This document shows, one piece after another, positions 494 to 60,088 of a DNA stretch of 64,000 nt. Numbering within the stretch: the stretch's first letter is position 1; each line of letters opens with the position of its first letter. Origin of the DNA: Clytia hemisphaerica (lineage: Eukaryota > Cnidaria > Hydrozoa > Leptothecata > Clytiidae); contig CACVBU010000865.1 of the NCBI GenBank assembly GCA_902728285.1, positions 1,579,044 to 1,643,043 on the forward strand. Direction: 5' to 3'. The translations under genes were made by a program, and so were the position numbers. The notes beneath the pieces were generated by a model, which was not told the DNA's origin, searched no databases, and worked only from the letters and a program-made list of their open reading frames with translations.

Positions 494-774
494 GTTGGAT
501 AATGTGACGGTGACGGCAAAAAGAGTGAATGCGCAAATATGCATTCAAAAAGCATCCTACCCCGACAATCCTCTTCTTTCAATTTTAAAGACCTTCCCTC
601 AAGCCGCCAAATATTGTGGTGAATTACAAGGAGAGTTGTTACAATTTCCATCGCAAGCTGCTTACGATATTTTGGCTGACTTTATTACGGCAGACGAAGA
701 CTTGAAAAATATTGGAACGGTGCACTTAGGTGGTCACGATTTTGGTGTTGAAGGCCAAGTTCTATGGTTAGATG
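494..774 (+). CDS. Gene 1 exon 1 in window: CTLD1, N-terminal part
   Basis: Acceptor ...GCGTGCAG before 494, donor GTAAGT at 775. The first base completes an upstream codon, so at least one exon precedes it. The encoded segment contains AAKYCGELQGELLQFPS and ends HLGGHDFGVEG..LWLDG, the usual CTLD pattern of a Cys-bearing helix followed by WxDG. The exon ends in phase 1 inside the Gly of DG, a position reused in CTLD3 and CTLD4. Confidence 0.88.
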
Positions 775-3700
775 GTAAGTGCTCCTCACTGATATTTGTA
801 AAGCTCGAAGGGCTAGATAGGCAACTTTAAGCTCTCTCCAGCAAAAATAATTGAAGCAAAAATTTGACTTTTTAAACTTCGTGTCGATGGATAGGATCTA
901 GCATTTTAATTGTTTTCGAAGCGCGAGATCAAAAAAAGTAGGCGGTAAATGCTATTTCGCATCTCTCAAACCAGTGAAATTCTGTGTTGTCACAATACTA
1001 CCAAACTTGCCTCACTTTTCGATAAAGACCCTGGATGTATATTATATATTCATATTTTTCGAGTATTGCATACTCTTAGGTTCAAAATAAACGGGCATCC
1101 CCCGCTTGTTAATTTTTCAAAAAATTTCCAACCCCTCCGGACCTTATTAGGACTCCCCATTTATTAATTTTTAAGAATATTTTCAGCTGTCAATGAGAAG
1201 GCCCAAAATAGCCTGGTTTTAGTCTATATTTACCTTATTTTTGGGTTTTCAGAAGTACAATTTCCAGCCCCCCCCCCGGCAATTAGCCCCCCCCCCCCCC
1301 GTTTATTTGGAACCTAAGAGTAATGGTTCGCCATTCAAAAAATCCCGGAGTTAGCAGCTATCATTCCGGCTGTTTCATTTTAATTATAATGTTGATTTCA
1401 TTTTTCTTTAAAGGTACTAATGGAACAGAATTAACCATTCAATATACTAATGGTCTAACGATAAATGTCCTGTCCTACCTCACAACCACTAGAACTGTGG
1501 GCTGGGCTAGTGCCACAGCAAGTATTCCTTTCATCTGCCAATGGAAACGAGGTGATTATGTTTATCTAATCGGGGAAAACTTCGTCGGGGAAAAGTGACG
1601 AAATTTTGGACAAGTTATGAATATTTTCCCCGGCGAATTTTTCCCCGATAAGGTATCAAAGGAGCATGTTTGCAAACATTGAATTTTAAGTCCGAAGGGC
1701 TATATAGTGGAATCTTCAATCTTTTCCCAAGGAAGTGTAGCTTTTTAAGATTTTCGTGCTTTTAATGACGGATAGAATCTAGCGCTTTCTTTGTTTTCAC
1801 GTGGCCCATCTGGCGATGGATTTTACTTTTTATCTAGCGTTTTTGTAAAAACATCGCAGGAGATTCGCTCTGGATAGGAACGAGTGGTTTATTTTTCATC
1901 CAATGGGTTTCAATCCAATCCTTCAGGATGTTATCTCAAAGGGAGTGACGGCCGCCAAACATTAGGGCTAGCATAGAAATTGATTTGATACGTACGTATT
2001 TGGTACGGTATTGGGCTATCTAATCTCATAACGTATCATCCATTCTGCGCACACCATTCTTTACTCTTAAGAAATGTGGCGATTGCAATGAATGGAGTCT
2101 ATATACGGCGTTTGTATGTCATTATATGTTTTGCTTGCAACTTGCGATTCGAGGAGGGTCTGGAACGCTTTGCAACTTTTATACATATACAGAAACGTGC
2201 TAACGCGGAGTAATCAAAATCTACTCGGGGAAATTTTCACCAGTGATAGATACTGACCATCTAAGACAGTTTGCGAAATTTCACTTAGTCAGTCAGACAC
2301 GTGGGCGGTGGTTTCGATTTTGCTTTTAAAATTTGGCTGCAAGCTTGTATTATCAATATACCTAAAGGCTACTTAGACTACACAATATATTGACGAACAA
2401 TATTCAACAATATAGTTTTCGGACCGTAATGTACGAAGTAAAAATCAGGTACTCTATTATAAAAAGGATTTTCTTTCTTTAAAAATCCCTCTATATTGTT
2501 GAAATATTGCAAATCGAGCTGACAATATATTGCGGACACCTTAACAATATATTGTCTGCACTCAGCAATATATCGTCAATAAATTGTTTAGTGTATGTAG
2601 CCCTTAACAATTTTTAAAATTTCAAGTCAATAGTCAATTTTCCAATCCTTAGATACAGTATCTTAAGGCTGATTTACACAAAAAGGGCAATTTTAAGCCT
2701 TTCTGTAAAATACACGATATCAAGGTGGAAAATATCGATTCTATGCTCAAAAAATACATGTCACATGGAGTTGCCATGGAGTTGGGGGGGGGGCACCCCA
2801 AGATACTCAAAGAGTCAAAACTCGTGTAACTTATGGCATGTCCAAAATGACCAATAAGTTTGGCTCAGAAAATAGGAGACCTTTGGCGTAGCCCTAAAAG
2901 GTTATTCTTCAGTCTCAGCGGAGTTTATAAAGAAGCTTTTCCGTTTCAAAATTCTGAACGCAGTCACCAAAATTTCAAGAATAGGTGCAAATCAAATCTG
3001 CTGCAGATGGTTTCAGAAGAAAAACCTTGTTTTGACCTATGGATTCATAATGAATTTCTATCATTCATTTTTAGACAGGAGTAAGTGTGCTTTATTGGGT
3101 GGATATCAGTTCGGTGATCGGTGCTTTCGACATCTCTCGGTGAAAAATGGAGCTAAATATTCGGCTGATGGCTTATGTACAGAATGGCATACAGATGCTA
3201 CACTATTTACGCCACTTGAGACCCCCAAAGAGATGAGTTTTCTACAAAAATCCTTAAAAGATGTAGGCGTGAGTAAAGTATGGATGGGCGCTACATATGA
3301 CGTGGACACGTGGGTTTGGGCGGATTCTGTTTCACGTCCTAATTTATTGCAGCCGCCGTCGGCTCCGTTGTTTCTTGACACCTGTGCAATGCTCGATGTT
3401 AATGCGTCGCCAAGCGCTATTTACACCACTTTCATTTGTATTGATCCGTTCTCGGCCTATGATATACTGTGTCAATTGTCAAGTAAGTTTTTTTTTTTAC
3501 GTTTGTTTGTTTATATCCTAACTTCAACTGATACACGATTTTTTTTATAAGAATGGTGTAAATCCATTTCATCGTGAATATTCTTAACTTTTTTGGGAAA
3601 ATCATCCTAAAATATTCTTACAGCATTCAGCATTACACCATTCTTATAAAAAAAATCGTGTATCAGTTGAAGTTTAGACTAGATTTAACATTTAGTACAA

Positions 3701-27700: not shown

Positions 27701-30700
27701 ACGTGTACTGCAGTACCTCCGCTACGGTTTAGGTAGATAGATATATATTAAAAGAGGAGCCTTCGGGTCGCCTCCGACTGTGGTTGCAGAATTACTATCT
27801 TTTTGTGGATTTAAGTATAAGACTTGATATAAAATACTTTTTTGCTCAGAATTTCATGCTGTATCCGATGATGATAACCATTTTTTGTTTGATTCCGAAA
27901 CTCCATCGTAGTAGTGAGTAGTAAGTAAGGAAGTTTGCAACCGCAGTCGGAGGCGACCCTTGATCCTTCTCTTAATTGCTGAGCATCAAGTAGAGAGGCC
28001 TCAAGTACCAATTTGAGAATCTTTGGCATGACCCGGCTTGGGGTTGAACCCACAACCTTGCACACCGTAGCCGGATGCTCTACCAATGCACTACGGTCGC
28101 CATCGTAGTAATAACTTAAGTCATTATTGAACACAAATCTTTCTTCTTAATTCATAGCACCCTCAGCGCCACCGCAGAATATCTATATCAGCTCCATCAA
28201 AACACAATCACAACTCACCATACACTGGTCTCCGCCACCGCCCGACCGTATCCATGGTGATTTACTGGCGTACAAACTCAAAGTGTTCGCAATGAAAACT
28301 GGAGCTGACGTTTATATCGATCCCAAGGTCGACGTCTATGATCTTCACCCTGGGTTTACAAGTTACACGTTGAGATTTTTGACCACTAATACGTTTTACA
28401 GTTTTGAGATTCTGGCTGTTAACCAATTTGGTGAAGGAGTCAGTGATGAGGTGGTCGGAAGTAAGGATGAGCTTTTTACCTTATACGACATCATTTAACG
28501 TACCAATATTGCTTACACATCATTTAAAAAAAGAATATCTTTAAGGGTATAAATTGTGACGAAGAGGAATCTTTGCAAATTCAAGTCAAAAGAGCTACAG
28601 ATTTTTTTATAATTTCAAGATACTTCTTGTACAATTTACTTAATACGGTTTGATTGGATAAAGGGTTTTATGAATACAATAATGGATAAATCGACATTTG
28701 TTGATAACGTACTGAACTTTTTTTCAATAGGAACTTGTCCTTGTCCAGCAGTCGTATCCAGTAATTTCTACCTCTACGCTCCGTACCTGACAAGAGATTC
28801 CGAAGGCAAACTCGCTAGTGTGTTCGGTGATGTCCTTGATGCTGCCATTTCGGCCACGTGTGGTGTGTGTAATACACCGAACGGTCCAGTTTATACCAAA
28901 CTTGATAAAATGCGGAACGGTCGGTTAGAATTCGCTGAGAAGTCACTCGAATTGAAAGTTTTAAAAGAAGTTGATGAATATACGGATTTATCTTTCCCGA
29001 TAATTGGGAATACATATTCGGACGAAATGGTTGGTTATCCTTTTGTTCCACTGGTCGGACACCCAGGTGTTGTAGCGATTGTCCGAGATAAAAATATCAA
29101 TGAGATTGTTATTGAAATGATCATGATGATATTGGGTATCTATCCTTTGATTGGATTGAATCTCTTGATGATGATTGCTGCTGGATATGTTGTCTGGTTA
29201 TTGGTGAGTATTTATTCAGTATTTATTTGTCTATTTCATAGGATTCGATTGGTGAGTCATTGCATTCAGCGTCACTTAATCGATGTAAATGAAAATCCGT
29301 CCAGTTCCGATTTTCCACTGGGATCTTCCGCCCTTTTAAATTTCTGACCATGGGATATCTAGAAGATTCGAGACTATATGAATTTCATCGATGAGGTCAA
29401 TGAATGAGGCCGGTAAATTGTAAATCTTTTGTGTGTTGGATAGATGAAATTTGACGTCCGCCGGGAGAAAATAAAACCTCTGATATTGCATTTATCTTTG
29501 CTCCTTTATTTTCAACTTCCAGGAAGCGTGCAACAGTGACGAAGGTTCAGTGGATTTCTCCAACTCGTGGATTCGTGGTATTTATGAAGGCTGGTATTGG
29601 GCTTTTATCACTCAAGGAACTCACGGGTAAATTTGCTGTCTTTCCATTTGTTATTTTTGCTTTTTATTTATATTCAGGATATTCATGATGTAAAGTTTTC
29701 TACGGAAATACCCCGGTTTTAGCCAGTAGTGGCAAATTTGAACTAGACAAAATTTGTATAAAATTTGCCACTACTGGCAAAAACTGGGGTCTTTCCGTAG
29801 AAAACATTACGTCATGAATATCATGAATATAATTTAATCTTAAGCTACTGCACTGACCTAAGTAAGTAAGTCTCCGACGGCAGTCCTCTTTCGATAGCTA
29901 TCTACCTGAAGGTAGGGGAGGGCGCCACTCTTTCTCCCTGGATTACTCCACTTACCCTTGATCCTTTTTTTAAATGCGGAGCATTAAGCAGAGAAACATC
30001 AAGTATCAACTAAGTACAATGTCTTTCATGTGACCCAGCCAAAAATTGAACGGCATAGCAGTAATCAACTTTTCATGGTTGAGCACTCTTTTGCGGATTG
30101 AGGTATAAGTTTTACACAGAAAGCAACACTAGAAAAGAGTTCTTGAATTCCCAAGTCAATTGGGTTTTTCCAGAAAAAAACCGTATACAGTTGAGGAGGG
30201 GGAGGGATTTCCGTTCCAAGGGGGTAAGGTTTGATATGTGGCGGAATTCCATAGGGAGATACAAAAATCTGTCAAAAACAACTGGGATTCCATGGCGGTA
30301 GCTTTTTAAATCCTACTAAAGTTCAGAATTCCAGAGGGGTTTAAACCTGAAATAGCCTGGAATTCCAGGGGTTACAGAGGGATGGACCCATTGAGTTTAA
30401 AGCCCGAAGGGCTCGAGTAGAATCTCTAACCTTTCTCAGGCAAGAAAAAAGTGAAGCCTTAAAAAATGCGCCGTATTTTTGACGACAGATTGAATCTAGC
30501 AATTCCTTTGTTTACGATTGATATTTGTTTCGAAATTTAGCGGTAAATTTTAGTTTCAATCTGTCATTTGTGTAAAAATCAGGCGAGCCGCTCAAGGCCG
30601 CGCAACTTTGGTAGGATTAGTTGGCTTCAAATCCTACCAAGGAGATTCGATTCTAGCCCTTCGGGCTTAGACTTCATTGGATGGACCTCCTCAACAGGGG

Positions 30701-33700
30701 GTATACAGTCTTTTTCTGGAAAAGCCCTGAATGATGAAAAAAAATCCCTCTAATGAATAAATATGTTTTATCCTTATAGGTATGGTGACTTTGCTCCAAC
30801 TAAAGTTGGTGCTCGAATATTCGCTATGATTTGGGCGTTAGTCGGCTTAGTGATGACTGGAATTGTAATTGGTGCCATAGTAACAGCCTTGACAACCGTA
30901 AATGGTGCCGCGCAGTTCAAAATTTACGGTAGCCAGGTAAATTGGCCATTACGCAACTTGAGTTTTCCACAAAAAATTACGCGATTACGAAGCTTTTCAA
31001 CGCAAAAAGATTCTTAGAAATATGTTATAGAATTTACAAAAAAATCCTTGGAAAAATTCTTTTTACACCTTGAAGTTAGGGTGGACGAACTAAGATCAGT
31101 CTTTTACCACCTGGAAAAGTTATTTAGACTAACTTTTTACAACCTGTAAAAATGAAGAAAAAAAAATTTTCCAGACCCTCTGGAAACTCATCTTGGATTT
31201 TCCCCTGGAAAGGTTTGTTCACCCCCCCTCTCTGTGTGGATGTAAAATTGATGTGATAGATAAATTTTTGTGATATATTTTAGAACGTATAAACCATTTC
31301 GATATTTTTCTCAACAGGTGGGAGCTTTGAACGGGACATTTGAAGCAAAACTTGGACTGCTCAGAAACGGAAAAGTCAATGAGAGTAAGGAAAAGAAAAA
31401 TTTAAAATTCTTTATATGTCACACCAGCTAATTTTGTCATCTTTTGATGATTTCTTTTTCTTTCAGTATTTACATAGTAGGCTTATACACCCCTGTCTCA
31501 CAACCCCGGTGGCACTTTTTCCTCAGTGGGGATAAAAATTCCTATTGAGATCATAATGGGGATAGAAATTCTATTGTTCCAAGGCTAAAAAATCCCAGTG
31601 GGGATGGTTTTGGAGTGCAATTTTTAAACATGGAATTTCGAGTGGGGATGAAATCAAAGTCGACTTCCCAGTGGGGTTGAAATTCAAGGGTATTTTCCTA
31701 CCAGAGACGAAATTTGTGCTTAATTTTCAGGTGGGGCTGGGGTTCCAGCGGGTCTGTGACACAGGGGTGTGCTTATAATTTTTGATTATGTATCTTCCAT
31801 GTAGAAAAAGCCTACTTAACAGTCGAAGAACTACGTGACGCATTATTAAACAATGACGTCGAAGGTGTCCTTCTAGATGCATACACCGCTGGAGCAAATG
31901 CAGATCTCTTCGCGGACGAAAGACTCCGCGCGGCCACGTTATTGGAATATCCGCGGTCGTACGGATTTGTTTTGTCTGGTGGTTTGAGAAGCGTGGCGGC
32001 AGAGTTCAAGAGCTTCATGAAGAGTGATGAAGATCGTATACTGAGTATTCTAACCAACTCCACTGAACCGATGGGGGTACGTTGAATTTTTCATCTTATA
32101 CACGTTTTTTATAAGAACATCCAAAATTTTTGAAGCCTTTGGATATTCTTAGCTTTTTGAGTTTTAAGCCGCCTAAAAATATTCTTAACATGTTCTGATA
32201 TATCTTCACCATTGTGTGAGTATTTTTGTCCATTTTCCTAAGAAAAAGGTTTTTTAAGTTCCGCAAAGCCTTAAATGTTCTTAACTTGCTCTTAATATTT
32301 TTGCCTTCGAAGCCTTATGTTCTTATATAGTTTGTTCTTATAAAACGAAACGTGTACTTGTGAGACTTTAGTTTATCTATCTGCGGACACGCATTAACTT
32401 TTAATTAATGAACTCTGCCGACTTTTTTTCCGGCGTTTTCCGGCTCTTTAAAAAATGGAGAGAAAATTTAATCATCAGTGGGGCTCGGGTAAGGGAACAT
32501 AGACTGCTGTTGATTTTAATTTTGTATGTTGGGAAGGAAGTAAGTTCGGCTTTAAAAAATGTCTTGTCTTTGAGTGATGTGGTATTTATTAGGCTAGATA
32601 AGAGAGGAATCTCCAACCTTTCTCGGGCAATCAAAAGTGGCCCTTTAAACCATACTCGGACATTATTGTCAAGCATCCCATCGGTATGGTTTTTGTTACA
32701 GATAGGAAGTGATCATATTGGTTTTGGAGTAAGAAAACGGAACAGTTCCGTTCCGATGAAAATAATGGAGCGAAACTGTTTCGATCTATTTTGCTTTGTA
32801 ACGTCTTACTTTTTTGAATTTTCAAATTCAGTCCAATCCAATGTCCACACATAGTGTTTTGGAACTATTTCGCTTCGAACCGTAATGTCTGGACTGTTTT
32901 AGATTTGCGACCATTGTGGGTAACAGATCAGATCTAGCTTTTTCTTTGTTTTCGCGTTGTACGTTGCGCATTGCACGTTTATAGCACGTTTTTCGGATTC
33001 TGGTGGTAAAGGGGCTTTTCCAGAAAAAACCGTATACCCCCTGTTGAGGAGGTCCATCCCTCTGTGGTTGGAAATGCTGTAATCCCATGGAATTCCAGGC
33101 AATTCAGGTTTAAACCCCTCTGGAATTCTGAATTTTAGTAGGATTTAAAAAGCTACCCCATGGAATTCCAGTTATTTTTGACAGATTTAGTTATTTTATG
33201 TTATTTTCAATGATCTTACCGTTGCTTTATTCGCTTTAGGTTGCACCACCAGCTGAATTGAAATCACCTTTCGATCCAGAATCGAGTATTTTAGCAACTG
33301 CCCTCATCTCTATGACAGTCATGTTGGTCGTTTTCTCCATTCTTGGCTTCATATGGTCACACTTCCTAAAGAAAATCAATGCTAAAAAGGAGCAAATTCT
33401 TGGTAAGTGAAAAAAAAAACAAGGGTTTGGAGTATTGAAAATTTTTGCTTGTCGTCTAGTACTAAATTATGACACGTCCCATAATGCTATGGCGCAAAAC
33501 AAACTGGAGTGCCTAGACATGATCATTTGTACGTCAAAAGAATGTAGCGTATTCATGATATGCACCATTGTAATGTCTTCCACGGACCCAACAGCTGATT
33601 GGTTGCAAGTGACGTATTGACTGATTTTACGTCACTTGCAACCAATCAGCTGTTGGGTCCGTGATGTAATGTCGTAAGACATTGCAATGGTGCATTTCAT

Positions 33701-34377
33701 GAATTAGGGTAGACGATGTTATCGTCCGTTAGAGAGTAGTAAACGCGGGAAAATGTATACGCGCAGAGTCGGGGCGTCCGGGCGGCTTATGGAAAAAACG
33801 TCACTGCTTACTCCGCCCAGGGCTAACCATCGTTTTAAAATGTACTCATGATCTTATGATTATTTTCGACCTTGCAATGGCCGATTTGAATTTTCTTTCG
33901 TTCATTCTTTCAGATCCCAAAGACGTTCTCGCCATGTGTAATTTGCTTGTCGAGGATTTCAAAGAAACGATGGATTCCAAAATGGTAGATCTGGAGGATA
34001 AACATTTATTACAGCGAGAGTTATTATATAAAGATTACCATGGTCACAGCGCTATTGAGCACCACAAGATGAATGGCGATAAATTACAAAAAATGCTTGA
34101 CGCCAAACTAATGCAAAACAGAGTTGCGCCTTGTCCTGATTCGGAACAACTTGTTGACGAAATGGAAACTGGACGACTTTCCGTCGCGTCGTCCGTCGCG
34201 TCGTCCGTCATGTCGAAACATATATTGGAAACGTCGATGGATGAGGAAACGAACGTCGAGAGTGAACAAACTCCTCCAGTAACTGAAACCCCCATTGAAA
34301 GTTTCGATGATGAGCAATATGAGGAATTCGAAAACTCTGAGGATGAAATTGATCAACAAAACAATGCTTCACCCTAA
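494..34377 (+). CDS. Chimeric lectin/TSP1/SEA/FN3 receptor with GluR-topology, K+-filter ion channel core (30 exons, 5' partial)
   Basis: I joined 30 GT-AG exons: 494-774, 1414-1551, 3075-3482, 6978-7202, 7752-7931, 8374-8472, 9152-9307, 9586-9729, 10127-10378, 12024-12170, 14994-15107, 15566-15688, 16746-16976, 18403-18546, 19587-19757, 20740-20913, 21745-21851, 22657-22730, 24179-24333, 24789-25076, 26420-26527, 26949-27134, 28158-28460, 28731-29203, 29523-29626, 30780-30936, 31318-31384, 31805-32076, 33240-33402, 33914-34377. All phases match and no stop interrupts, giving 1968 residues plus stop; the start lies upstream. Domains (residues from the first full codon): CTLD 1-140, CTLD 141-265, Thr-rich 277-350, TSP1 351-411, CTLD 412-543, CTLD 545-677, TSP1 678-735, Cys-rich 735-833, TSP1 834-881, 882-938 and 939-996, SEA 997-1107, FN3 1108-1204, 1205-1301 and 1303-1403, S1 1404-1527, TM1 1528-1560, pore loop with GYGD 1595-1598, TM2 1606-1632, S2 1650-1765, TM3 1777-1799, acidic tail. 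The inferred role is a plasma-membrane channel sensing extracellular matrix or glycans. Two adjacent genes remain possible, but no internal start or stop supports that. Confidence 0.88.
1071..1322. repeat. MITE with TACTCTTAGGT ends, G-family copy 1
   Basis: Begins TACTCTTAGGTTC and ends ...GAACCTAAGAGTA. The interior has C-rich runs and AATTTTT blocks. A second copy with the same ends is at 12192-12509. Superfamily unknown; no clear target duplication. Confidence 0.7.
1414..1551 (+). CDS. Gene 1 exon 2: CTLD1, C-terminal part
   Basis: Acceptor TTTAAAG before 1414, donor GTGATT at 1552; phase 1 on both sides. It completes CTLD1, ending PFICQWKR, where the final Cys of the fold sits in the usual F-(I/V)-C-(E/Q) context. 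No EPN/QPN or WND calcium-binding motif is seen, so calcium-dependent sugar binding is doubtful. Confidence 0.85.
1565..1653. repeat. MITE with CGGGGAAA...TTTCCCCG ends, TA target (J-family copy 2)
   Basis: Lies between TA dinucleotides, starting TCTAATCGGGGAAA and ending TTCCCCGATAAGG. The longer copy is 43310-43463, also between TA and TA. It starts only 13 nt past the exon 2 donor. Confidence 0.6.
1654..3074. other. Intron 2 remainder, old repeat debris
   Basis: A degraded piece with the ...AAGTCCGAAGGGCTA end (E family) sits near 1680-1920. Around 2340-2600 there are several ATATATTG/CAATATAT blocks in both orientations. No exon-like reading frame fits the phase of the flanking exons. 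Confidence 0.4.
3075..3482 (+). CDS. Gene 1 exon 3: CTLD2, whole domain in one exon
   Basis: Acceptor TTTTTAG before 3075, donor GTAAGT at 3483. It encodes a complete CTLD: KCALLGGYQFGDRCFRHLS, then a Cys-bearing helix, KVWMGATYD, TWVWADS, DTCAML and YTTFICID. It is phase 1 on both sides but, unlike CTLD1, 3 and 4, has no intron after the WxD motif, which suggests intron loss. No calcium-site motif is visible. Confidence 0.88.
3533..3885. repeat. TA-inserting MITE, C-family copy 1
   Basis: Starts CACGATTTTTTTTATAAGAA and ends TTCTTATAAAAAAACGTG, between TA dinucleotides. The interior contains GGTGTAAATCCATTTCATCG, shared with 10400-10723, 45565-45815 and 47303-47842. A secondary inverted copy of the end lies inside at about 3630-3660. 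Confidence 0.75.
3889..3956. repeat. Foldback repeat with CACGCTAAAGCTCTGAAGG core
   Basis: The core GCCCACGCTAAAGCTCTAAAGGAGCGGG lies between short inverted arms (CCGATGGGG/CCCATCAG). The same core recurs at 55178-55262 and 58886-58981. Confidence 0.55.
4070..5730. other. Intron 3 middle, foldback repeats, no exon seen
   Basis: A foldback around TTTCGAAATTTGACC at about 4090-4195 and a larger one at 4600-4771 (AGCTGGAGTTTTTACAAG and its inverse) occupy this stretch. The remaining open frames are short, lack splice signals in the right phase, and look accidental. Confidence 0.4.
4600..4771. repeat. Foldback with GATGAGCTGGAGTTTTTAC arms
   Basis: The left arm ATAATTTCGGGATGAGCTGG...TTTTTACAAG is mirrored by CTTGTAAAAACTCCAGCTTG...ATAATTTCGG about 170 bp later. 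Confidence 0.6.
5731..5828. repeat. Foldback repeat, CCCAGCTG...CAACGTT family, copy 2
   Basis: Starts CCCGGACGGCACACAACGT and ends CAACGTTGTGTGCCAGCTAGG, with internal CCAAATAACGTTATTTGAACG palindromic words. It is a longer member of the family at 363-407. Confidence 0.65.
6083..6411. repeat. MITE with ACAATCATGGTCATAAT ends, B-family copy 1
   Basis: Begins ACAATCATGGTCATAAT and ends TTTTGACCATGATTGT. The interior matches 48098-48425 at many positions (for example GGATCCAAAAGTTCAA and AAATCGAGTTTCTCGCCCGAAC). Two dispersed copies, no coding capacity. Confidence 0.7.
6978..7202 (+). CDS. Gene 1 exon 4: Thr-rich mucin-like linker
   Basis: Acceptor TTTATAG before 6978, donor GTAAGC at 7203; phase 1 on both sides. 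About 74 residues are dominated by Thr with Pro, Ala and Gly (units like TTTTTPAG). The DNA holds five 24-nt units at 6998-7117. Such segments are usually O-glycosylated stalks, so it should hold CTLD1-2 away from the rest of the ectodomain. The minus-strand Val-rich frame here is a shadow. Confidence 0.85.
7752..7931 (+). CDS. Gene 1 exon 5: TSP1 domain 1 (divergent)
   Basis: Acceptor poly-T CAG before 7752, donor GTGAGG at 7932; phase 1. It encodes a single TSP1 repeat with KCSKTCGLG, then Cys at CVPP, APCDPG, DCNPH and ACPG, so six Cys. The usual WxxW tryptophan ladder is reduced to GYWTDF. CSKTCG matches the O-fucosylation consensus of TSP1 repeats. Confidence 0.85.
7941..8160. repeat. 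TA-inserting MITE, A-family copy 1
   Basis: Starts CACGTTTTTTTATAAGAAC just after a TA, only 9 nt past the exon 5 donor. The right end ...TGTTCTTATAAAAAAAG is truncated. The interior shares GAAGCCTTGAG/ATGTTCTTAAC words with 32101-32354 and 46989-47235. Confidence 0.65.
8374..8472 (+). CDS. Gene 1 exon 6: CTLD3, first part
   Basis: Acceptor CATTTTAG before 8374, donor GTAGAA at 8473; phase 1. It encodes EPCDLPNSPPGFFKFGSKC, the standard opening of a CTLD (Cys, then G-F/Y-x(3)-G-x-x-C). The next exon completes the first helix. Confidence 0.85.
9015..9113 (+). repeat. tRNA-derived SINE, 3' half only
   Basis: Contains AGAAATCCAGGGAGAAAGAG, GGGTAGATAGCTATCGAAAG and CGACTGCGGTTGCAAACTTA, the tail half of the SINE whose full copy is at 18113-18353. 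It ends 39 nt before exon 7. Confidence 0.65.
9152..9307 (+). CDS. Gene 1 exon 7: CTLD3, middle part
   Basis: Acceptor CGTTTAG before 9152, donor GTAAGA at 9308; phase 1. It encodes GLAHCAKEYGGELLTLHSAEE, the Cys-bearing helix and following strand, and ends LTWQDG at the same WxDG intron position as CTLD1. Confidence 0.88.
9586..9729 (+). CDS. Gene 1 exon 8: CTLD3, last part
   Basis: Acceptor TTTGCAG before 9586, donor GTAAGT at 9730; phase 1. It ends CLRLNGERQ...WSRC...RVICQLREG, giving the two closing disulfide Cys of the fold. The usual WND calcium motif is replaced by LEWSRC. Confidence 0.85.
9744..9895. repeat. D-family MITE, left half
   Basis: Starts GGGCTTTTCCAGAAAAAAAA then CCGTATACCCCCTATTGAGG, 14 nt past the exon 8 donor. 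It lacks the matching right end. The full copy is at 11660-11942. Confidence 0.6.
10127..10378 (+). CDS. Gene 1 exon 9: CTLD4, N-terminal two thirds
   Basis: Acceptor TTTTTTTAG before 10127, donor GTAAGT at 10379; phase 1. It encodes SDCTKQNGFQYKTKCYREF, a helix with Cys (ADICKGW), FMPDSGEEIDF, AVWVDGTD and ends SLVWRDS. Intron placement after WxD matches CTLD1 and CTLD3. Confidence 0.88.
10400..10723. repeat. TA-inserting MITE, C-family copy 2
   Basis: Starts CACGTTTTTTCATACGAATA after a TA, 21 nt past the exon 9 donor. It ends ACACCATTCTTATAAAAAAAG then CATG-TA. The interior matches 3533-3885. Confidence 0.7.
10726..11132. repeat. TA-inserting MITE with CCGTATTACTT ends
   Basis: Lies between TA dinucleotides, beginning CCGTATTACTTCGAATAAA and ending AATTAAGTAATACGG. 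Its interior is full of GAATAAACGCCCC words. It abuts the previous element, sharing its TA. Confidence 0.7.
11660..11942. repeat. D-family MITE, complete copy
   Basis: Begins GGGCTTTCCCAGAAAAAA, then CCGTACACCCCCTGTTGAGG; ends CCTCAACAGGGGGTGTACGG then TTTTTATCTGGAAAAGCCC, so the inverted ends are about 45 bp. The interior carries repeated GGAATTCCA(G/T)GGG words. Other copies: 9744, 30162 and 33012. Confidence 0.8.
12024..12170 (+). CDS. Gene 1 exon 10: CTLD4, C-terminal part
   Basis: Acceptor AATTTTTAG before 12024, donor GTAAGA at 12171; phase 1. It encodes ...DKDCLKYWFKFQYSVCES...KTLCQIGTG, closing the fold with the conserved C-terminal Cys. No calcium motif is seen. Confidence 0.85.
12192..12509. 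repeat. MITE with TACTCTTAGGT ends, G-family copy 2
   Basis: Begins TACTCTTAGGTGCCAAATAA and ends TTATTTGGCACCTAAGAGTA, with poly-C tracts of up to about 27 bases inside. Same family as 1071-1322. Confidence 0.7.
12556..12730. repeat. Dispersed repeat, GACGG/CCGTC-rich (T family), degraded copy
   Basis: Words such as GAGGATGGTAGAGTGACTGAAG match, in inverse or direct form, the better copies at 18733-18945, 50950-51112 and 57683-57862. Ends are poorly defined. Confidence 0.4.
12835..13060. repeat. Tandem duplication, two 113-bp units
   Basis: TCACCGCGTTTACCCTACC at 12841 recurs as TCACCGCATTTACCCTACC at 12954, and the rest of the unit (CTCGAATTTCCTTTCCGAGC and onward) repeats with few changes. 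A separate inverted repeat with GTAAAGTGCGATACCGTAGG arms lies just upstream at 12735-12830. Confidence 0.7.
13492..13608. repeat. pogo/Tigger-like MITE, TA target
   Basis: Begins CAGTTGATGCTCTCTGG and ends AGAGAGCGTCAACTG, flanked on both sides by TA. Same class of ends as 18-172. Confidence 0.65.
13696..14020. mobile_element. hAT-like MITE (F family) with perfect 8-bp target duplication
   Basis: Starts CCCGGGGGGTACTAG and ends AGTACCC...CCCGGG. It is flanked by GTCTATCT at 13688-13695 and again at 14021-14028. The interior repeats GACCCTTA(C/G)(C/T)GGGACT several times. Eight-bp duplications are typical of hAT elements. There is no transposase. Confidence 0.8.
14326..14822. repeat. TA-inserting MITE with CCGTGAGATCGGGTTAC ends
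   Basis: Lies between TA dinucleotides with 17-bp inverted ends (CCGTGAGATCGGGTTAC / GTTACCCGATCTCACGG). A second internal inverted pair (GAGGCTAACATACATAGCCC at about 14622 and its inverse at 14774) makes it partly foldback. The 70-codon frame inside is not convincing as a gene. Confidence 0.75.
14994..15107 (+). CDS. Gene 1 exon 11: TSP1 domain 2, first half
   Basis: Acceptor CTTTATAG before 14994, donor GTATTG at 15108; phase 1. It encodes AWSRWSDCPLTCKRGKMKR, with the WxxW C-mannosylation motif and CxxTC O-fucosylation site of TSP1. The domain continues in exon 12. Confidence 0.85.
15377..15534. repeat. Long foldback (K family) copy 1
   Basis: The arms begin ATTCATGATATGCACCATTG and mirror at the right end CAATGGTGCATATCATAAAT, with CACGGACCCAACAGCTGATT inside the arms. 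It ends 31 nt before exon 12. A near-identical copy is at 33551-33705. Confidence 0.8.
15566..15688 (+). CDS. Gene 1 exon 12: end of TSP1-2 and start of Cys-rich module
   Basis: Acceptor TTTTCAAG before 15566, donor GTATAT at 15689; phase 1. It encodes DTCEGLPLTEEEDCLVRENC, which closes TSP1-2, followed by GYYLADPGLSCAQFCPTKDG. The second part opens a separate Cys-rich module that exon 13 completes. Confidence 0.8.
16021..16168. repeat. Foldback (M family), CTAGCCTGTTACATTTT arms
   Basis: The left arm AGTGAGGTTAAGTAAATCGG...AACAGGCTAGTGA is mirrored by CACTAGCCTGTTACATTTT...TTAACCTCACT. The right half recurs at 61418-61514. Confidence 0.75.
16240..16440. repeat. Imperfect foldback, GTCGAGATATTT arms
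   Basis: CCAAAATATTTTTGCCTAAC...TTTCCAAAGTCGAGATATTT is mirrored by AATATCTCGATTTTGGAAAA...ACAAAAATACTTT about 130 bp later. Confidence 0.5.
16746..16976 (+). CDS. Gene 1 exon 13: Cys-rich module
   Basis: Acceptor TTTTTCAAG before 16746, donor GTATAT at 16977; phase 1. With the end of exon 12 it forms about 98 residues containing YYLADPGLSC..FC, MGCLANIETG, GPGCLAGDICVEY, VSCDEVP and RRLCNCLG. I have no firm family name. The G-x-SC-x-x-x-C ... C-x-C layout resembles Cys-rich repeats found beside TSP1 domains in some marine invertebrates. Confidence 0.8.
17023..17284. repeat. Imperfect long foldback, AGAGCTACTCTGT arms
   Basis: The left arm AGAGCTACTCTGTATTCCC...GCGCCATCTTTG is mirrored by CAAAGATGGCGGATC...GGGATAGAGTAGCTCT, with GCCGG-containing inner arms. 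The rest of the intron to 18112 holds a pogo-like MITE (17706-17873) and nothing recognisable as an exon. Confidence 0.6.
17706..17873. repeat. Degraded pogo/Tigger-like MITE
   Basis: The left part AACCCTCTCTAAATCGAACC and right part GAATTAGAGAGTGTCATCTG match the ends of 18-172 with substitutions. Confidence 0.45.
18113..18353 (+). repeat. tRNA-derived SINE, full copy
   Basis: The head GACCGTAGTGCAGTGGTGGA resembles a pol III A box and GGGTTCAACCCCC a B box, as in a tRNA. The tRNA-like head is followed by a non-tRNA body with CTTGATGCTCAGCAATTAAG, GGGTAGATAGCTATCGATAG and a CGTCGCAGACTTACTT tail. Other copies: 23108-23326 (-), 27921-28100 (-), 29863-30088 (-, degraded), 54675-54935 (+), and fragments at 9015 and 27731. 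Confidence 0.8.
18403..18546 (+). CDS. Gene 1 exon 14: TSP1 domain 3
   Basis: Acceptor poly-T CAG before 18403, donor GTGAGT at 18547; phase 1. It encodes GGWSPWSECSATCNGTRSRE with six Cys in total, ending CGAGSCPS. WSPW is a C-mannosylation motif and CSATC an O-fucosylation site. It is a short but complete TSP1. Confidence 0.9.
18733..18945. repeat. Dispersed repeat (T family), best copy
   Basis: The left part GAGTTTATGTATGTGTGTTT...GACGGTAAGG and right part ACCGTCCTC...GCAAATACATAAACTC are inverted relative to each other. The core CAGCTGAGGACGACGGTAAA recurs inverted at 57780-57800. Between here and exon 15 I see nothing recognisable. Confidence 0.6.
19587..19757 (+). CDS. Gene 1 exon 15: TSP1 domain 4
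   Basis: Acceptor GTTTAAAG before 19587, donor GTAATT at 19758; phase 1. It encodes SQWSSWTNCDVTCGGGRTTR, ACDNPEPKYDGNGC and ends DDCGVINCPG: a canonical six-Cys TSP1 with WSSW and CDVTCGGG. Confidence 0.92.
19758..20739. other. Intron 15, no clear exon
   Basis: About 980 bp, strongly AT-rich from 20200 onward. Part of it (20030-20115, with GGTTTTTGCGTTTAGCCAA) is an inverted relative of 17955-18110, so it is repeat-derived. No exon in the right phase. Confidence 0.4.
20740..20913 (+). CDS. Gene 1 exon 16: TSP1 domain 5
   Basis: Acceptor ACTTTTCAG before 20740, donor GTAAGT at 20914; phase 1. It encodes WAEWSPWSACDKACNTG, CNPANYGGIPC and APCNEFPCN. Two overlapping WxxW motifs are present. 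The fucosylation site is altered (CDKAC, no Ser/Thr). Confidence 0.92.
20977..21220. repeat. A-family TA MITE, degraded copy
   Basis: Starts CACGTTTTATTATTGATAAG after TA and ends GTTCTTGTTAAAAAATG before TA, with GAACATTTTAAGGCTTTATG inside. Confidence 0.55.
21317..21584. repeat. A-family TA MITE, degraded copy
   Basis: Starts CACGCTTTTTTATAAGAACC and ends TGTTCTCATAAAAAAAGC, with AAAATGTTCTTATGATGAC words inside. Confidence 0.55.
21593..21726. repeat. Long foldback (L family) copy 1
   Basis: The left arm TAATTATTCATGATATTCAT...GACCCCGGTTT is mirrored by AAACCGGGGTATTTCCG...ATGAATATCATGAATAATTA. It ends 18 nt before exon 17, so the branch point of intron 16 probably lies within it. Copy 2 is at 29669-29833. 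Confidence 0.8.
21745..21851 (+). CDS. Gene 1 exon 17: SEA domain, part 1
   Basis: Acceptor TTTACAG before 21745, donor GTTTGT at 21852. It enters in phase 1 and leaves in phase 0, breaking the symmetric phase-1 pattern upstream. It encodes TYANLVLHFNQDYESGMEDP, matching the opening strand of SEA domains. Confidence 0.82.
21868..22110. repeat. Diverged D-family relative
   Basis: TTGGGATTTTCTAGAAAAAA then TTGTACCCCCTATGTTTAGA resembles the D-family left end, followed by three tandem CATTTTACTG(A/G)(C/T)CA..CCTGGATTTTCA(A/C)CCT units. Confidence 0.45.
22155..22428. mobile_element. hAT-like MITE (I family) with perfect 8-bp target duplication
   Basis: Starts CACCCCTGTCTCACAACTCGG and ends ACACAGGGGTG. 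It is flanked by TATTTTAA at 22147-22154 and again at 22429-22436. The interior repeats GTGGGGAT(A/G)AAA. Second copy at 31488-31769. Confidence 0.82.
22657..22730 (+). CDS. Gene 1 exon 18: SEA domain, part 2
   Basis: Acceptor TTTCTAG before 22657, donor GTAAGT at 22731; phase 0 in, phase 2 out. A 74-nt micro-exon encoding INSVYEDGGEVMQNEVLGVD and the lead-in to the GSV site. It joins cleanly to exons 17 and 19. Confidence 0.8.
22918..23978. mobile_element. Element with CCCTGGTAAAAAT ends, AAGATCTT-rich interior
   Basis: Starts CCCTGGTAAAAATTATTG and ends GAATTTTTACCAGGG. The interior is dominated by AAGATCTT and related words in both orientations. A minus-strand SINE is nested at 23108-23326. 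No transposase frame. Superfamily unknown. Confidence 0.65.
23108..23326 (-). repeat. tRNA-derived SINE, nested copy
   Basis: On the minus strand the head GCGACCGTAGTGTAGTGG leads, followed by GGTTGCGAGTTCAACCCC (B box-like), TTGATGTTCATCAATTAAG and the tail. It lies inside the 22918-23978 element, so it inserted later. Confidence 0.78.
24179..24333 (+). CDS. Gene 1 exon 19: SEA domain, part 3 (GSV site)
   Basis: Acceptor TATCATAG before 24179, donor GTAAGT at 24334; phase 2 in, phase 1 out. It encodes EGSVIANFTINYASMDKEQ and ends MSLTIGPD. GSVIA aligns with the G-S(V/I) strand turn where SEA domains self-cleave. Confidence 0.85.
24334..24788. other. Intron 19, no clear feature
   Basis: AT-rich intron with one poly-C tract near 24627-24640. 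No complete repeat family or exon identified. Confidence 0.4.
24789..25076 (+). CDS. Gene 1 exon 20: FN3 domain 1
   Basis: Acceptor TTTTTCTAG before 24789, donor GTAAGC at 25077; phase 1. One exon carries a whole FN3: SEPPPNVTAHSPSPEVLIIS, then W at SWDAI, DAYVVFYRE, and LKPGTEYVYRVLGYS, the conserved L-x-P-x-T-x-Y motif. Confidence 0.92.
25077..26419. other. Intron 20, MITE remnants and G-rich short tandem repeat
   Basis: A degraded A-family MITE is at about 25676-25866 (TTTTTTTATAAAAAACACC to TATTATAAAAAATGTG). At 25955-26065 GGGGTCCGAATAAAAG-type units repeat four to five times. The rest is unremarkable AT-rich sequence. Confidence 0.45.
26420..26527 (+). CDS. Gene 1 exon 21: FN3 domain 2, first half
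   Basis: Acceptor GTGTTTTAG before 26420, donor GTAAGT at 26528; phase 1. It encodes LPQVSPSNVTAEGSGPFEV, LTWVRVP and NGIPLG, the A-C strands of FN3. The intron falls before G-Y-x-I-Y, a common FN3 intron site. Confidence 0.88.
26949..27134 (+). CDS. Gene 1 exon 22: FN3 domain 2, second half
   Basis: Acceptor GTATTTAG before 26949, donor GTAAGG at 27135; phase 1. It encodes GYNIYAYHNG...LEPSTSYVFDVCAFNSAGDS, the C'-G strands with the L-x-P-x-T-x-Y motif (LEPSTSY). Confidence 0.9.
27184..27484. repeat. E-family MITE copy 1
   Basis: The left CATTGAGTTTAAAGCCCAAA and right TAGCCCTTCGGACTTGGAAG ends are inverted. Flanks TATCTT and TATCCA are a degraded target duplication. Better copies at 30389 and 42861. 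Confidence 0.65.
27731..27806 (+). repeat. SINE fragment (tail)
   Basis: AGGTAGATAGATATATATTA and GAGGAGCCTTCGGGTCGCCT match the SINE tail at 18300-18353. Confidence 0.5.
27921..28100 (-). repeat. tRNA-derived SINE, internally deleted copy
   Basis: The minus-strand head GCGACCGTAGTGCATTGG, B box GGGTTCAACCCC and CTTGATGCTCAGCAATTAAG are clear. The GGGTAGATAGCTATC block is missing. It ends 57 nt before exon 23. Confidence 0.72.
28158..28460 (+). CDS. Gene 1 exon 23: FN3 domain 3
   Basis: Acceptor ATTCATAG before 28158, donor GTAAGG at 28461; phase 1. One exon carries a whole FN3: APSAPPQNIYISS, LTIHWSPPPPDRIHG, AYKLKVFA and TFYSFEILAVNQFGEG. It sits directly before the channel module. Confidence 0.9.
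28731..29203 (+). CDS. Gene 1 exon 24: S1 half of ligand-binding-like domain and TM1
   Basis: Acceptor TTCAATAG before 28731, donor GTGAGT at 29204; phase 1 in, phase 0 out. The first ~125 residues (FYLYAPYLTRDSEG, DVLDAAISA, EYTDLSFPIIG) resemble lobe 1 of a PBP-like domain, as in iGluR S1. They are followed by IVIEMIMMILGIYPLIGLNL and more hydrophobic residues, TM1 (1528-1560). The iGluR arginine that grips the ligand carboxylate is not visible. Confidence 0.8.
29523..29626 (+). CDS. Gene 1 exon 25: pore-loop helix up to the selectivity filter
   Basis: Acceptor CAACTTCCAG before 29523, donor GTAAAT at 29627; phase 0 in, phase 2 out. It encodes SNSWIRGIYEGWYWAFITQG then TH and the first two bases of the filter Gly. 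WYWAFITQGT is the pore helix entering a K+-type filter. Confidence 0.88.
29669..29833. repeat. Long foldback (L family) copy 2
   Basis: The arms carry ATATTCATGATGTAA, TACGGAAATACCCCGGTTTT and the inner TTTGCCACTACTGG. The mirror image ends ATTACGTCATGAATATCATG. Same family as 21593-21726, with a larger loop. Confidence 0.8.
29863..30088 (-). repeat. tRNA-derived SINE, degraded head
   Basis: The tail half (GATAGCTATCTACCTGAAGG, CCACTCTTTCTCCCTGGATT, TTACCCTTGATCC) is clear. The tRNA-like head near 30020-30088 is strongly mutated. Confidence 0.6.
30162..30727. repeat. D-family MITE interrupted by an E-family MITE
   Basis: The left end GGGTTTTTCCAGAAAAAAAC is at 30162 and the right end CCTCCTCAACAGGGGGTAT...TGGAAAAGCCC finishes at 30727. 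The E element (30389-30679) splits it. Confidence 0.72.
30389..30679. mobile_element. E-family MITE nested in D-family, 6-bp target duplication ATGGAC
   Basis: Starts CCATTGAGTTTAAAGCCCGA and ends ...CCTTCGGGCTTAGACTTCATTGG. ATGGAC precedes it and follows it; one copy is what intact D elements show at this point (GGGATGG or GGTTGGACCTCC). Confidence 0.75.
30780..30936 (+). CDS. Gene 1 exon 26: selectivity filter GYGD and TM2
   Basis: Acceptor TCCTTATAG before 30780, donor GTAAAT at 30937; phase 2 in, phase 0 out. It begins (G)YGDFAPTKVGARIFAM and continues IWALVGLVMTGIVIGAIVTA, TM2 (1606-1632). GYGD followed by x-x-P is the K+-channel filter signature; iGluRs of vertebrates lack it, while GluR0-type channels have it. 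Confidence 0.9.
31318..31384 (+). CDS. Gene 1 exon 27: TM2-S2 linker
   Basis: Acceptor TCTCAACAG before 31318, donor GTAAGG at 31385; phase 0 in, phase 1 out. A 67-nt exon encoding VGALNGTFEAKLGLLRNGKV. NGT is a glycosylation sequon, consistent with the stretch after TM2 being extracellular. Confidence 0.8.
31488..31769. mobile_element. hAT-like MITE (I family) copy 2
   Basis: Starts CACCCCTGTCTCACAACCCC and ends GTGACACAGGGGTG. The flanks GGCTTATA and TGCTTATA match at seven of eight positions. Confidence 0.8.
31805..32076 (+). CDS. Gene 1 exon 28: S2 half of ligand-binding-like domain
   Basis: Acceptor CCATGTAG before 31805, donor GTACGT at 32077; phase 1 in, phase 0 out. It encodes AYLTVEELRDALLNNDVEG, ADLFADERLRAATLLEYP, then SYGFVLSGGLRSVAAEFKSF and RILSILTNSTEPMG. 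The helix-strand-helix order with S-Y-G-F-V-L fits lobe 2 of an iGluR/PBP fold. NST is a sequon. Confidence 0.82.
32101..32354. repeat. TA-inserting MITE, A-family copy 2 (intact)
   Basis: Between TA dinucleotides: starts CACGTTTTTTATAAGAACAT and ends TTGTTCTTATAAAACGAAACGTG. It starts 25 nt past the exon 28 donor. Confidence 0.78.
33012..33185. repeat. D-family MITE, left half
   Basis: Starts GGGCTTTTCCAGAAAAAAC then CGTATACCCCCTGTTGAGGA, with TGGAATTCCAGGCAATTCAG inside. The right end is missing. Confidence 0.65.
33240..33402 (+). CDS. Gene 1 exon 29: TM3
   Basis: Acceptor TCGCTTTAG before 33240, donor GTAAGT at 33403; phase 0 in, phase 1 out. After FDPESS comes ILATALISMTVMLVVFSILG and FIW, a clear transmembrane helix (1777-1799), then basic HFLKKINAKK, the expected cytoplasmic flank. 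Confidence 0.9.
33551..33705. repeat. Long foldback (K family) copy 2
   Basis: Nearly perfect arms: ATTCATGATATGCACCATTG...CAACAGCTGATTGGTTGCAA and the mirror TTGCAACCAATCAGCTGTTG...CAATGGTGCATTTCATGAAT. Confidence 0.85.
33711..33830. repeat. Dispersed repeat with GACGATGTTATCGTCCGTTA
   Basis: The word is followed by AGTAGTAAACGCGGGAAAAT. Same order at 40249-40340 and 58580-58665. Confidence 0.5.
33914..34377 (+). CDS. Gene 1 exon 30: cytoplasmic tail and stop
   Basis: Acceptor TTCTTTCAG before 33914; stop TAA 34375-34377. The 154-residue tail opens with a helical, charged stretch (LLVEDFKETMDSKMVDLEDK, possibly coiled coil). It then has a Ser-rich SVASSVASSVMSK from a 12-nt DNA repeat near 34180-34212, and ends very acidic (FDDEQYEEFENSEDEIDQQ). 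No known cytosolic domain is recognised. Confidence 0.9.
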
Positions 34378-59570: not shown

Positions 59571-60088
59571 TGCGTTCGTTCGTTCGTTCGTTCGTTCGTT
59601 CGTTTCGTTCGTCGTTCGTTCGTTTCGTTCGTTCGTTTCGTTCGTTCGTTCGTTCGTTCGTTCGTTCGTTCGTTCGTTTCGTTCGTTCGTTCGTTCGTTC
59701 GTTCGTTCGTTCGTTCGTTCGTTCGTTCGTTCGTTCGTTCGTTCGTTCGTTCGTTCGTTCGTTCGTTCGTTCGTTCGTTCGTTCGTTCGTTCGTTCGTTC
59801 GTTCGTTCGTTCGTTCGTTCGTTCGTTCGTTCGTTCGTTCGTTCGTTCGTTCGTTCGTTCGTTCGTTCGTTCGTTCGTTCGTTCGTTCGTTCGTTCGTTC
59901 GTTCGTTCGTTCGTTCGTTCGTTCGTTCGTTCGTTCGTTCGTTCGTTCGTTCGTTCGTTCGTTCGTTCGTTCGTTCGTTCGTTCGTTCGTTCGTTCGTTC
60001 GTTCGTTCGTTCGTTCGTTCGTTCGTTCGTTCGTTCGTTCGTTCGTTCGTTCGTTCGTTCGTTCGTTCGTTCGTTCGTTCGTTCGTTT
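59571..60088. repeat. (GTTC)n microsatellite, about 515 bp
   Basis: Uninterrupted GTTC units from about 59677 to 60087, with a few CGTTTCGTT/GTCGTTC slips in the first 100 bases. Open frames encoding RSFV or ERTN repeats here are artefacts of the repeat. Confidence 0.98.

Follow-up and report, generated by a model that had tools for sequence, protein, structure and literature searches.

The window analysed here, a stretch of 64,000 nucleotides from the hydrozoan Clytia hemisphaerica (contig CACVBU010000865.1), carries a gene in which a giant adhesion-type ectodomain is joined to a channel with the predicted fold of ionotropic glutamate receptors (iGluRs). On the models, computation shows the channel order S1-M1-P-M3-S2-M4, a clamshell like that of periplasmic binding proteins (PBPs) and a GYGD filter. 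Sequence comparison likewise shows a medusozoan family (Hydrozoa and Scyphozoa) with several members and previously undescribed. The reading that we favour, by a modest preference, is that the protein is a member of a medusozoan iGluR-fold family in which the amino-terminal domain (ATD) is replaced by an adhesion ectodomain, with a K+-type pore loop and a proposed gating by contact or pull.

The gene lies on the + strand at 494-34377 of the window and was assembled by hand from splice sites into 30 exons. Its introns are large. AG acceptors were found for 30 of 30 exons and GT donors for 29 of 29 introns. The spliced frame stays open across all 29 junctions and gives 1968 amino acids with a TAA stop at 34375-34377; phase 1 occurs at 23 of the junctions, the first 16 included. 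The spliced protein equals residues 280-2247 of P0002, an uncharacterised Clytia hemisphaerica protein of 2247 amino acids, letter for letter, although P0002 is a second gene model from the same species and the identity is thus not independent sequence. These results bear out the thirty phase-consistent exons proposed in the initial annotation. The extent given there held for the exons and failed at the 5' end, since the window edge truncates the gene: exon 1 starts with a splice acceptor, the gene runs upstream beyond the window, and P0002 has 279 additional residues there. The gene as read initially is confirmed, and chance is excluded because the same architecture recurs in eight further proteins.

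The relatives are mostly gene predictions. The channel part was searched against 5.8 billion predicted proteins with lengths of 0.55-1.75 times the model; 7999 best-word candidates were scored (about 8000 in each of the three protein searches) and nine rows were obtained at E <= 1. P0002, P0003, P0004, P0007 and P0009 are from Clytia, P0006 and P0008 from Hydractinia symbiolongicarpus, P0010 from the scyphozoan Rhopilema esculentum and P0005 from EukProt. In all nine proteins TSP1 is followed by FN3 and then by the channel. The third protein search, with a profile against proteins of about 0.55-1.75 times 412 amino acids, returned P0001 alone, a 445-residue open reading frame (ORF) from JGI on a 2364-base contig with 72% identity over 399 amino acids. 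It spans the channel counterpart uninterrupted, from within exon 24 to exon 30, the FN3-S1 join not being covered; its contig looks like spliced cDNA. When the 11 channel cores were placed in a midpoint-rooted tree, in which the Rhopilema branch is long, Rhopilema grouped with P0005, the hydrozoan rows grouped together and P0001 fell among the Clytia paralogues. The 3141-residue model of P0005 contains the complete TSP1-SEA-FN3-channel unit twice in tandem, which may reflect either a genuine chain with two channels or a merging of neighbouring genes. Prokaryote contigs scanned with the channel profile yielded 15 pattern matches, none of them a relative; the scan used two short pore patterns and would miss distant GluR0 relatives. 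Within titles and abstract openings, a scope that leaves most subscription papers outside, no cnidarian iGluR with a K+ filter and no such ectodomain fusion was found in the literature.

Channel core and filter

The S1-M1-P-M3-S2-M4 order was seen in the exon model, and hydropathy and the helices of the AlphaFold2 (AF2) model bear out the iGluR order claimed in the initial annotation. Structure prediction had been set beforehand as a possible refutation of that claim; it placed S1 and S2 inside a PBP-like fold, as a bilobed clamshell in the AF2 model and the structure searches. When the channel model was searched by structure, it matched the PBP/iGluR fold in full and the GluR0 core ranked first. 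Pfam Lig_chan exceeded its curated cut-off in P0005 only (51.3 vs 30.8 bits) and matched 10 of 11 channel rows at E <= 1, the exception being the window's cut; a longer piece of the window gave E 0.93. The M3 helix reads ...VIGAIVTALTTVNG, and the SYTANLAAF-type M3 motif, a feature of eukaryotic iGluRs, is absent from it. An NCBIfam scan gave pore matches and noise. Separately, an ABC2_membrane_3 match in 1 of 11 channel rows (8.4e-07) was judged a hydrophobic chance match. By predicted fold the protein belongs with the iGluR superfamily. It is filed apart from glutamate receptors because it lacks defining features of amino-acid-gated and of ATD-bearing iGluRs, and it is a variant of the iGluR-type channel rather than a glutamate receptor.

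The filter codons are divided by the exon 25/26 intron, and their context reads ...WYWAFITQGTHGYGDFAP. THGYGD was present in 10 of 10 channel copies of P0002-P0010 and THGFGD in P0001, a G[YF]GD core being kept in 11 of 11. The GYGD filter read initially was therefore recovered in every channel copy of the nine ectodomain-bearing proteins. In P0002, Ion_trans_2 scored 38.6 bits against a cut-off of 22.5. In a search of the PDB with a profile of the channel rows, the best 60 of 262 rows were all K+ channels. The sequence suggests that the pore is likely K+-selective. A sequon occurs at +60 or +61 from the filter Thr in 9 of 11 copies. Because of this sequon and of the ectodomain lying outside, S2 is most likely extracellular and the pore loop most likely enters from the cytoplasmic side. 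With the N terminus outside, the pore would be inverted compared with a K+ channel. This is also the orientation reported for GluR0 in the available part of the source (PMC13099474).

Ectodomain, gating and alternative explanations

The module order is CTLD-CTLD-mucin-TSP1-CTLD-CTLD-TSP1-Cys-rich-3xTSP1-SEA-3xFN3-S1-TM1-P-TM2-S2-TM3-tail, where CTLD is a C-type-lectin-like domain and TM a transmembrane helix. The initially proposed modules stand, whereas their order with the CTLDs first does not, as the mucin linker and a TSP1 repeat sit between the CTLD pairs. Pfam gave five TSP1 and three FN3 in P0002, the numbers proposed. Four CTLDs had also been claimed: Lectin_C passes Pfam in three stretches of a 676-residue piece spanning all four, and the total of four was counted by eye in the exon translations. 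The lectin head is a variable part of the protein because Lectin_C occurs in P0002 and P0003 only, of the nine proteins scanned with Pfam. The Cys-rich module (window 15566-16976) was recognisable by eye in seven of the eight other proteins, P0009 being the exception. Pfam gave no match for this module, for the P0005 head or for the first 193 residues of P0002. In the heads of P0005 and P0010, Cys-containing repeats that are beta-trefoil-like by eye stand in place of the lectin domains of P0002; a PDB search with the P0010 head gave no match. Scanned with Pfam at E <= 0.1, the gene models P0002-P0010 showed no ANF_receptor, the LIVBP-type domain that forms the ATD.

The SEA domain of the initial annotation was weak in Pfam for the window piece (E 0.028, 15.0 bits vs cut-off 26.4) and gained support from the family SEA profile, which found ADGRF1/GPR110 in the PDB at E 1.3e-5. 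Among the nine proteins, Pfam SEA was above the cut-off in P0005 alone, below it yet at E <= 0.1 in P0003, P0006, P0007 and P0009, and without a match at E <= 0.1 in P0002, P0004, P0008 and P0010. The SEA motif is placed between TSP1 and FN3 in all nine. The Gly-Ser pair at the autoproteolysis site is invariant in 10 of 10 copies, within a G-S-[VIL]-[VIA] motif. In the AF2 model of the SEA domain, which is small, with a mean predicted local distance difference test score (pLDDT) of 62.9 and residues 79-113 below 50, this pair lies in the turn joining strands 55-64 and 67-74. The available part of PMC6954182 describes a SEA domain with a GSVVV/GSIVA-type cleavage motif in adhesion receptors including ADGRF1/GPR110, with cleaved halves that remain associated until parted by force. 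By analogy, the SEA hinge is likely self-cutting.

From this architecture we infer, as the initial annotation did, a glycan-, matrix- or force-gated K+ channel. A head, lectin or other, would bind glycan, matrix or a neighbouring cell. The pull or contact would travel through the SEA joint, its cleaved halves still bound non-covalently, then along the FN3 stalk to the clamshell's S1 lobe, and the clamshell would open or close the gate. The subunits would form tetramers, and the open pore would pass K+, hyperpolarising and quieting the cell. A strong pull might tear the head off at the SEA joint, leaving the channel in a permanently altered state. The wider idea, a class of contact- or force-gated inhibitory jellyfish channels driven by lectin/TSP1/FN3 modules, with an autocleaved SEA domain as breakable link and no transmitter, is put forward tentatively, as a possibility below even chances. 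With a K+-type filter in all 11 copies, the family offers a way to test in two laboratory animals, Clytia and Hydractinia, how K+ selectivity arose and was lost among animal iGluRs. Were the pore gated by the ectodomain, a single chain would unite adhesion, autoproteolysis and K+ flux as a chemo-mechanical receptor, which would be a candidate modulator of prey or self contact in cnidarians. The discharge of cnidarian stinging cells is described, in the part of the source available, as responding to sugars and touch.

Several points weigh against the favoured reading. Confidence in the AF2 model is lowest at the pore loop (blocks 161-200 at pLDDT 52-70), and two of the five channel models were poor (53.6 and 53.5). 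The whole-chain structural matches were loose, with TM-scores of 0.34-0.51 on the query and root-mean-square deviations of 6-12 Å. Alignment to PBPs with hhalign reached a probability of just 6.5% at E 0.0057; three ABC ATPases as negative control gave E 0.3, reversed rows against PBPs scored 16.4, and a single typed GluA2 S1S2 aligned over 16 C-terminal columns only, at E 0.18. No PBP was found in sequence searches of the PDB with S1+S2, single or as a profile. All 11 copies have His in place of the Val of the usual TVGYG, an uncommon replacement that might make the pore less selective for K+; for this reason the selectivity is called likely rather than certain. SEA cleavage and force transmission rest on analogy. 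The clamshell keeps an invariant Asp and an RN motif and may yet be a binding site for a small ligand; gating by the ectodomain would then be needless. As to what those PDB searches did return, the single match of S1+S2 was to one calcium-binding protein (E 0.92), not relevant here, and the profile matches to Rad50 and Far1 were taken as chance.

The main rival is gating by a small ligand with the head as anchor. The protein would then be an ordinary iGluR-type ligand-gated K+ channel, its S1/S2 binding an amino acid or another small molecule as in GluR0 or AvGluR1 and its ectodomain placing or anchoring it. The complete fold and the first rank of GluR0 in the structure search speak for it, and the residues of the ligand site bear on it in both directions. 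In iGluRs, an S1 arginine binds the alpha-carboxylate of the amino acid and an acidic S2 residue binds the alpha-amino group. Residue registers at this site were taken from hhalign or set by hand. The S2 acid is kept as an invariant Asp (A3 column 179) in 10 of 10 rows, aligned with the PBP Asp. However, in none of the S1 columns is Arg shared by all 10 aligned rows. The PBP arginine position holds V, I, M, A or T in the hhalign register, V/I in all ten rows in a hand register on the DFS/DLS match, and varied residues, with no more than one row basic, in a second hand register that follows the model strands. The sole all-basic S1 column (64, R/K) belongs to an NG[RK] motif, which none of the registers used brings to the position of the PBP arginine. 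In S2, an invariant RN is followed by [GA][KE][VIM] where AMPA receptors have Gly-Ser-Thr (register by hand), which also speaks against this rival. The simplest reading of these residues is an intact clamshell without canonical amino-acid binding, and ordinary ligand gating is considered unlikely, though well worth weighing.

Less probable still is the same architecture with a non-selective or mixed cation pore, in which TVGYG has become THGYG and other pore-lining residues differ. The His in every copy favours it, and animal iGluRs are mostly non-selective; nevertheless, the GYGD core and the Thr are kept in hydrozoan and scyphozoan copies (one with GFGD), and the best 60 rows of the profile search described above were all K+ channels. 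We regard a non-conducting adhesion receptor or auxiliary subunit with a vestigial channel module as very improbable. Block identities were calculated with P0002 as reference against seven of its eight relatives. For TM1-P-TM2 they were 78% (P0003), 76% (P0004), 63% (P0006), 53% (P0007), 46% (P0008), 48% (P0009) and 43% (P0010), so that this block was the best kept or no more than 4 points below the best in 7 of 7 comparisons; with G[YF]GD in all 11 copies, this argues against a vestigial pore. S2 was the best-kept block in two close Clytia paralogues (80%). The size of the adhesion ectodomain and its TSP1 repeats 3-5, kept about like the pore in the other relatives (44-55%), count on the other side. 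Outside the close Clytia paralogues identity was lower in SEA (26-32%) and FN3 (30-42%). The head reached 39% in P0003 and 17-29% elsewhere where alignable, being missing in P0004, and TM3 and the tail were also variable.

A gene-model artefact that merged a lectin/TSP1/FN3 adhesion gene with a separate channel gene is scarcely credible: the large introns and the predicted nature of most relatives and of the join over 20.7-30.9 kb would allow it, but the fusion is predicted in nine proteins, eight from three named species, the frame is open across every junction, and P0001 runs unbroken over the channel counterpart, the FN3-S1 join excepted, so that the sequences support one gene with a real fusion.

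Features of the window

Table 1. Features of the channel gene in window coordinates.
Feature	Position	Strand	Evidence
Exons 1-2, C-type-lectin-like domain 1	494..1551	+	Exon model, P0002 identity, Lectin_C in shared 676-residue piece
Exon 3, C-type-lectin-like domain 2	3075..3482	+	Exon model, Lectin_C in shared 676-residue piece
Exon 4, Thr-rich mucin-like linker	6978..7202	+	Translation
Exon 5, TSP1 repeat 1, weak	7752..7931	+	TSP_1 E 0.016; five TSP_1 stretches in P0002
Exons 6-8, C-type-lectin-like domain 3	8374..9729	+	Exon model, Lectin_C in shared 676-residue piece
Exons 9-10, C-type-lectin-like domain 4	10127..12170	+	Best Lectin_C stretch, residues 572-670
Exons 11-12, TSP1 repeat 2 and beginning of Cys-rich module	14994..15688	+	Exon model, Pfam
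Exon 13, Cys-rich module	16746..16976	+	By eye in 7/8 other proteins; without Pfam family
Exons 14-16, TSP1 repeats 3-5	18403..20913	+	Exon model, Pfam
Exons 17-19, SEA domain	21745..24333	+	Family profile vs ADGRF1/GPR110; weak Pfam SEA
Gly-Ser of SEA autoproteolysis motif GSVIA	24183..24188	+	Predicted scissile bond between the two codons
Exons 20-23, three FN3 domains	24789..28460	+	Three fn3 stretches
Exon 24, S1 half of PBP-like clamshell	28733..29089	+	AF2 model, residues 1404-1522
Exon 24, TM1 (M1)	29141..29203	+	AF2 helix 137-159; hydropathy
Exon 25, pore helix and first filter half (T-H-G)	29556..29626	+	AF2 helix 169-189, low confidence
Exon 26, second filter half completing G-Y-G-D	30780..30789	+	Exon model; conserved in relatives
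Exon 26, TM2 (M3 equivalent)	30805..30909	+	AF2 helix 201-235; hydropathy
Exons 26-28, S2 half of clamshell, invariant RN motif and invariant Asp	30910..32076	+	AF2 model, alignment
Exon 29, TM3 (M4 equivalent)	33285..33402	+	AF2 helix 373-411; hydropathy
Exon 30, acidic tail (cytoplasmic by inference) and stop	33914..34377	+	Exon model

Exons of a PRDM-type gene were observed at 50422-54121 (+). A PRDM2-like PR domain is split there between the ORFs 50422-50847, where the match is weak, and 51442-51654 (E 1.3e-19), and an ORF of 488 residues carries C2H2 zinc fingers. A CGTT tandem array of 128 copies with 98% matches occupies 59573-60087, where several frames are open as FVRS/RTNE repeats. 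By eye, interspersed repeat copies around 'gggcttttccagaaaaaa...ccgtatac' on both strands of the window introns and inverted-repeat elements around 'aacgttgtgtgccagct' were seen; they are probably small mobile elements. Sites in introns lie, for example, at 9740-9900, 11660-11940, 30150-30370 and 33010-33170; others are at 362-410 and 5755-5825.

Comparison with known systems

Animal iGluRs (AMPA, kainate, NMDA and delta) and plant GLRs have the S1-M1-P-M3-S2-M4 order and the fold in common with the Clytia protein. The latter differs in lacking a Pfam ATD, the conserved S1 Arg and the SYTANLAAF-type M3, and in its GYGD filter. Members of the Polycystin-1 family join a large extracellular adhesion region, which includes a lectin domain and a site of autoproteolysis, to a channel-type membrane part; this part is of the TRP type, and the cleavage site is GAIN/GPS. 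The resemblance is one of working principle only. Autoproteolytic SEA receptors such as MUC1, GPR110/ADGRF1 and GPR116/ADGRF5 have a single TM helix or seven and, in contrast to the protein described here, are not channels. They resemble it in a SEA domain with a GSVVV/GSIVA-type motif at the corresponding place, as the available part of the source has it (PMC6954182).

Cnidarian AKDF and NMDA receptors figure in a broad 2025 iGluR phylogeny, whose text does not contain the word Clytia and whose available part mentions no cnidarian receptor with a K+ filter (PMC12226733). According to the available parts of PMC11479355 and PMC12332018, K+-signature filters in iGluR-type channels occur in GluR0 and in the rotifer AvGluR1, and K+-selective channels of this type, from cyanobacteria and one rotifer, are proposed ancestors of glutamate receptors. 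The initial annotation likened the filter to that of GluR0-type channels and missed that, on that account, AvGluR1, an animal iGluR, already has such a filter; it also missed the medusozoan family, the loss of a conserved amino-acid-binding arginine in S1 and the autocleavage motif of the SEA domain. AvGluR1 of Adineta vaga is thus alike in joining an animal iGluR architecture to a K+-signature filter; it is described there with eukaryotic iGluR architecture, not with an adhesion ectodomain. GluR0 of Synechocystis and Nostoc, a prokaryotic glutamate-gated K+ channel, is described as lacking M4 and the ATD (PMC11479355, available part). In contrast, the Clytia protein has a predicted M4 (helix 373-411), a C-terminal tail and a giant ectodomain, and it has no conserved S1 Arg.
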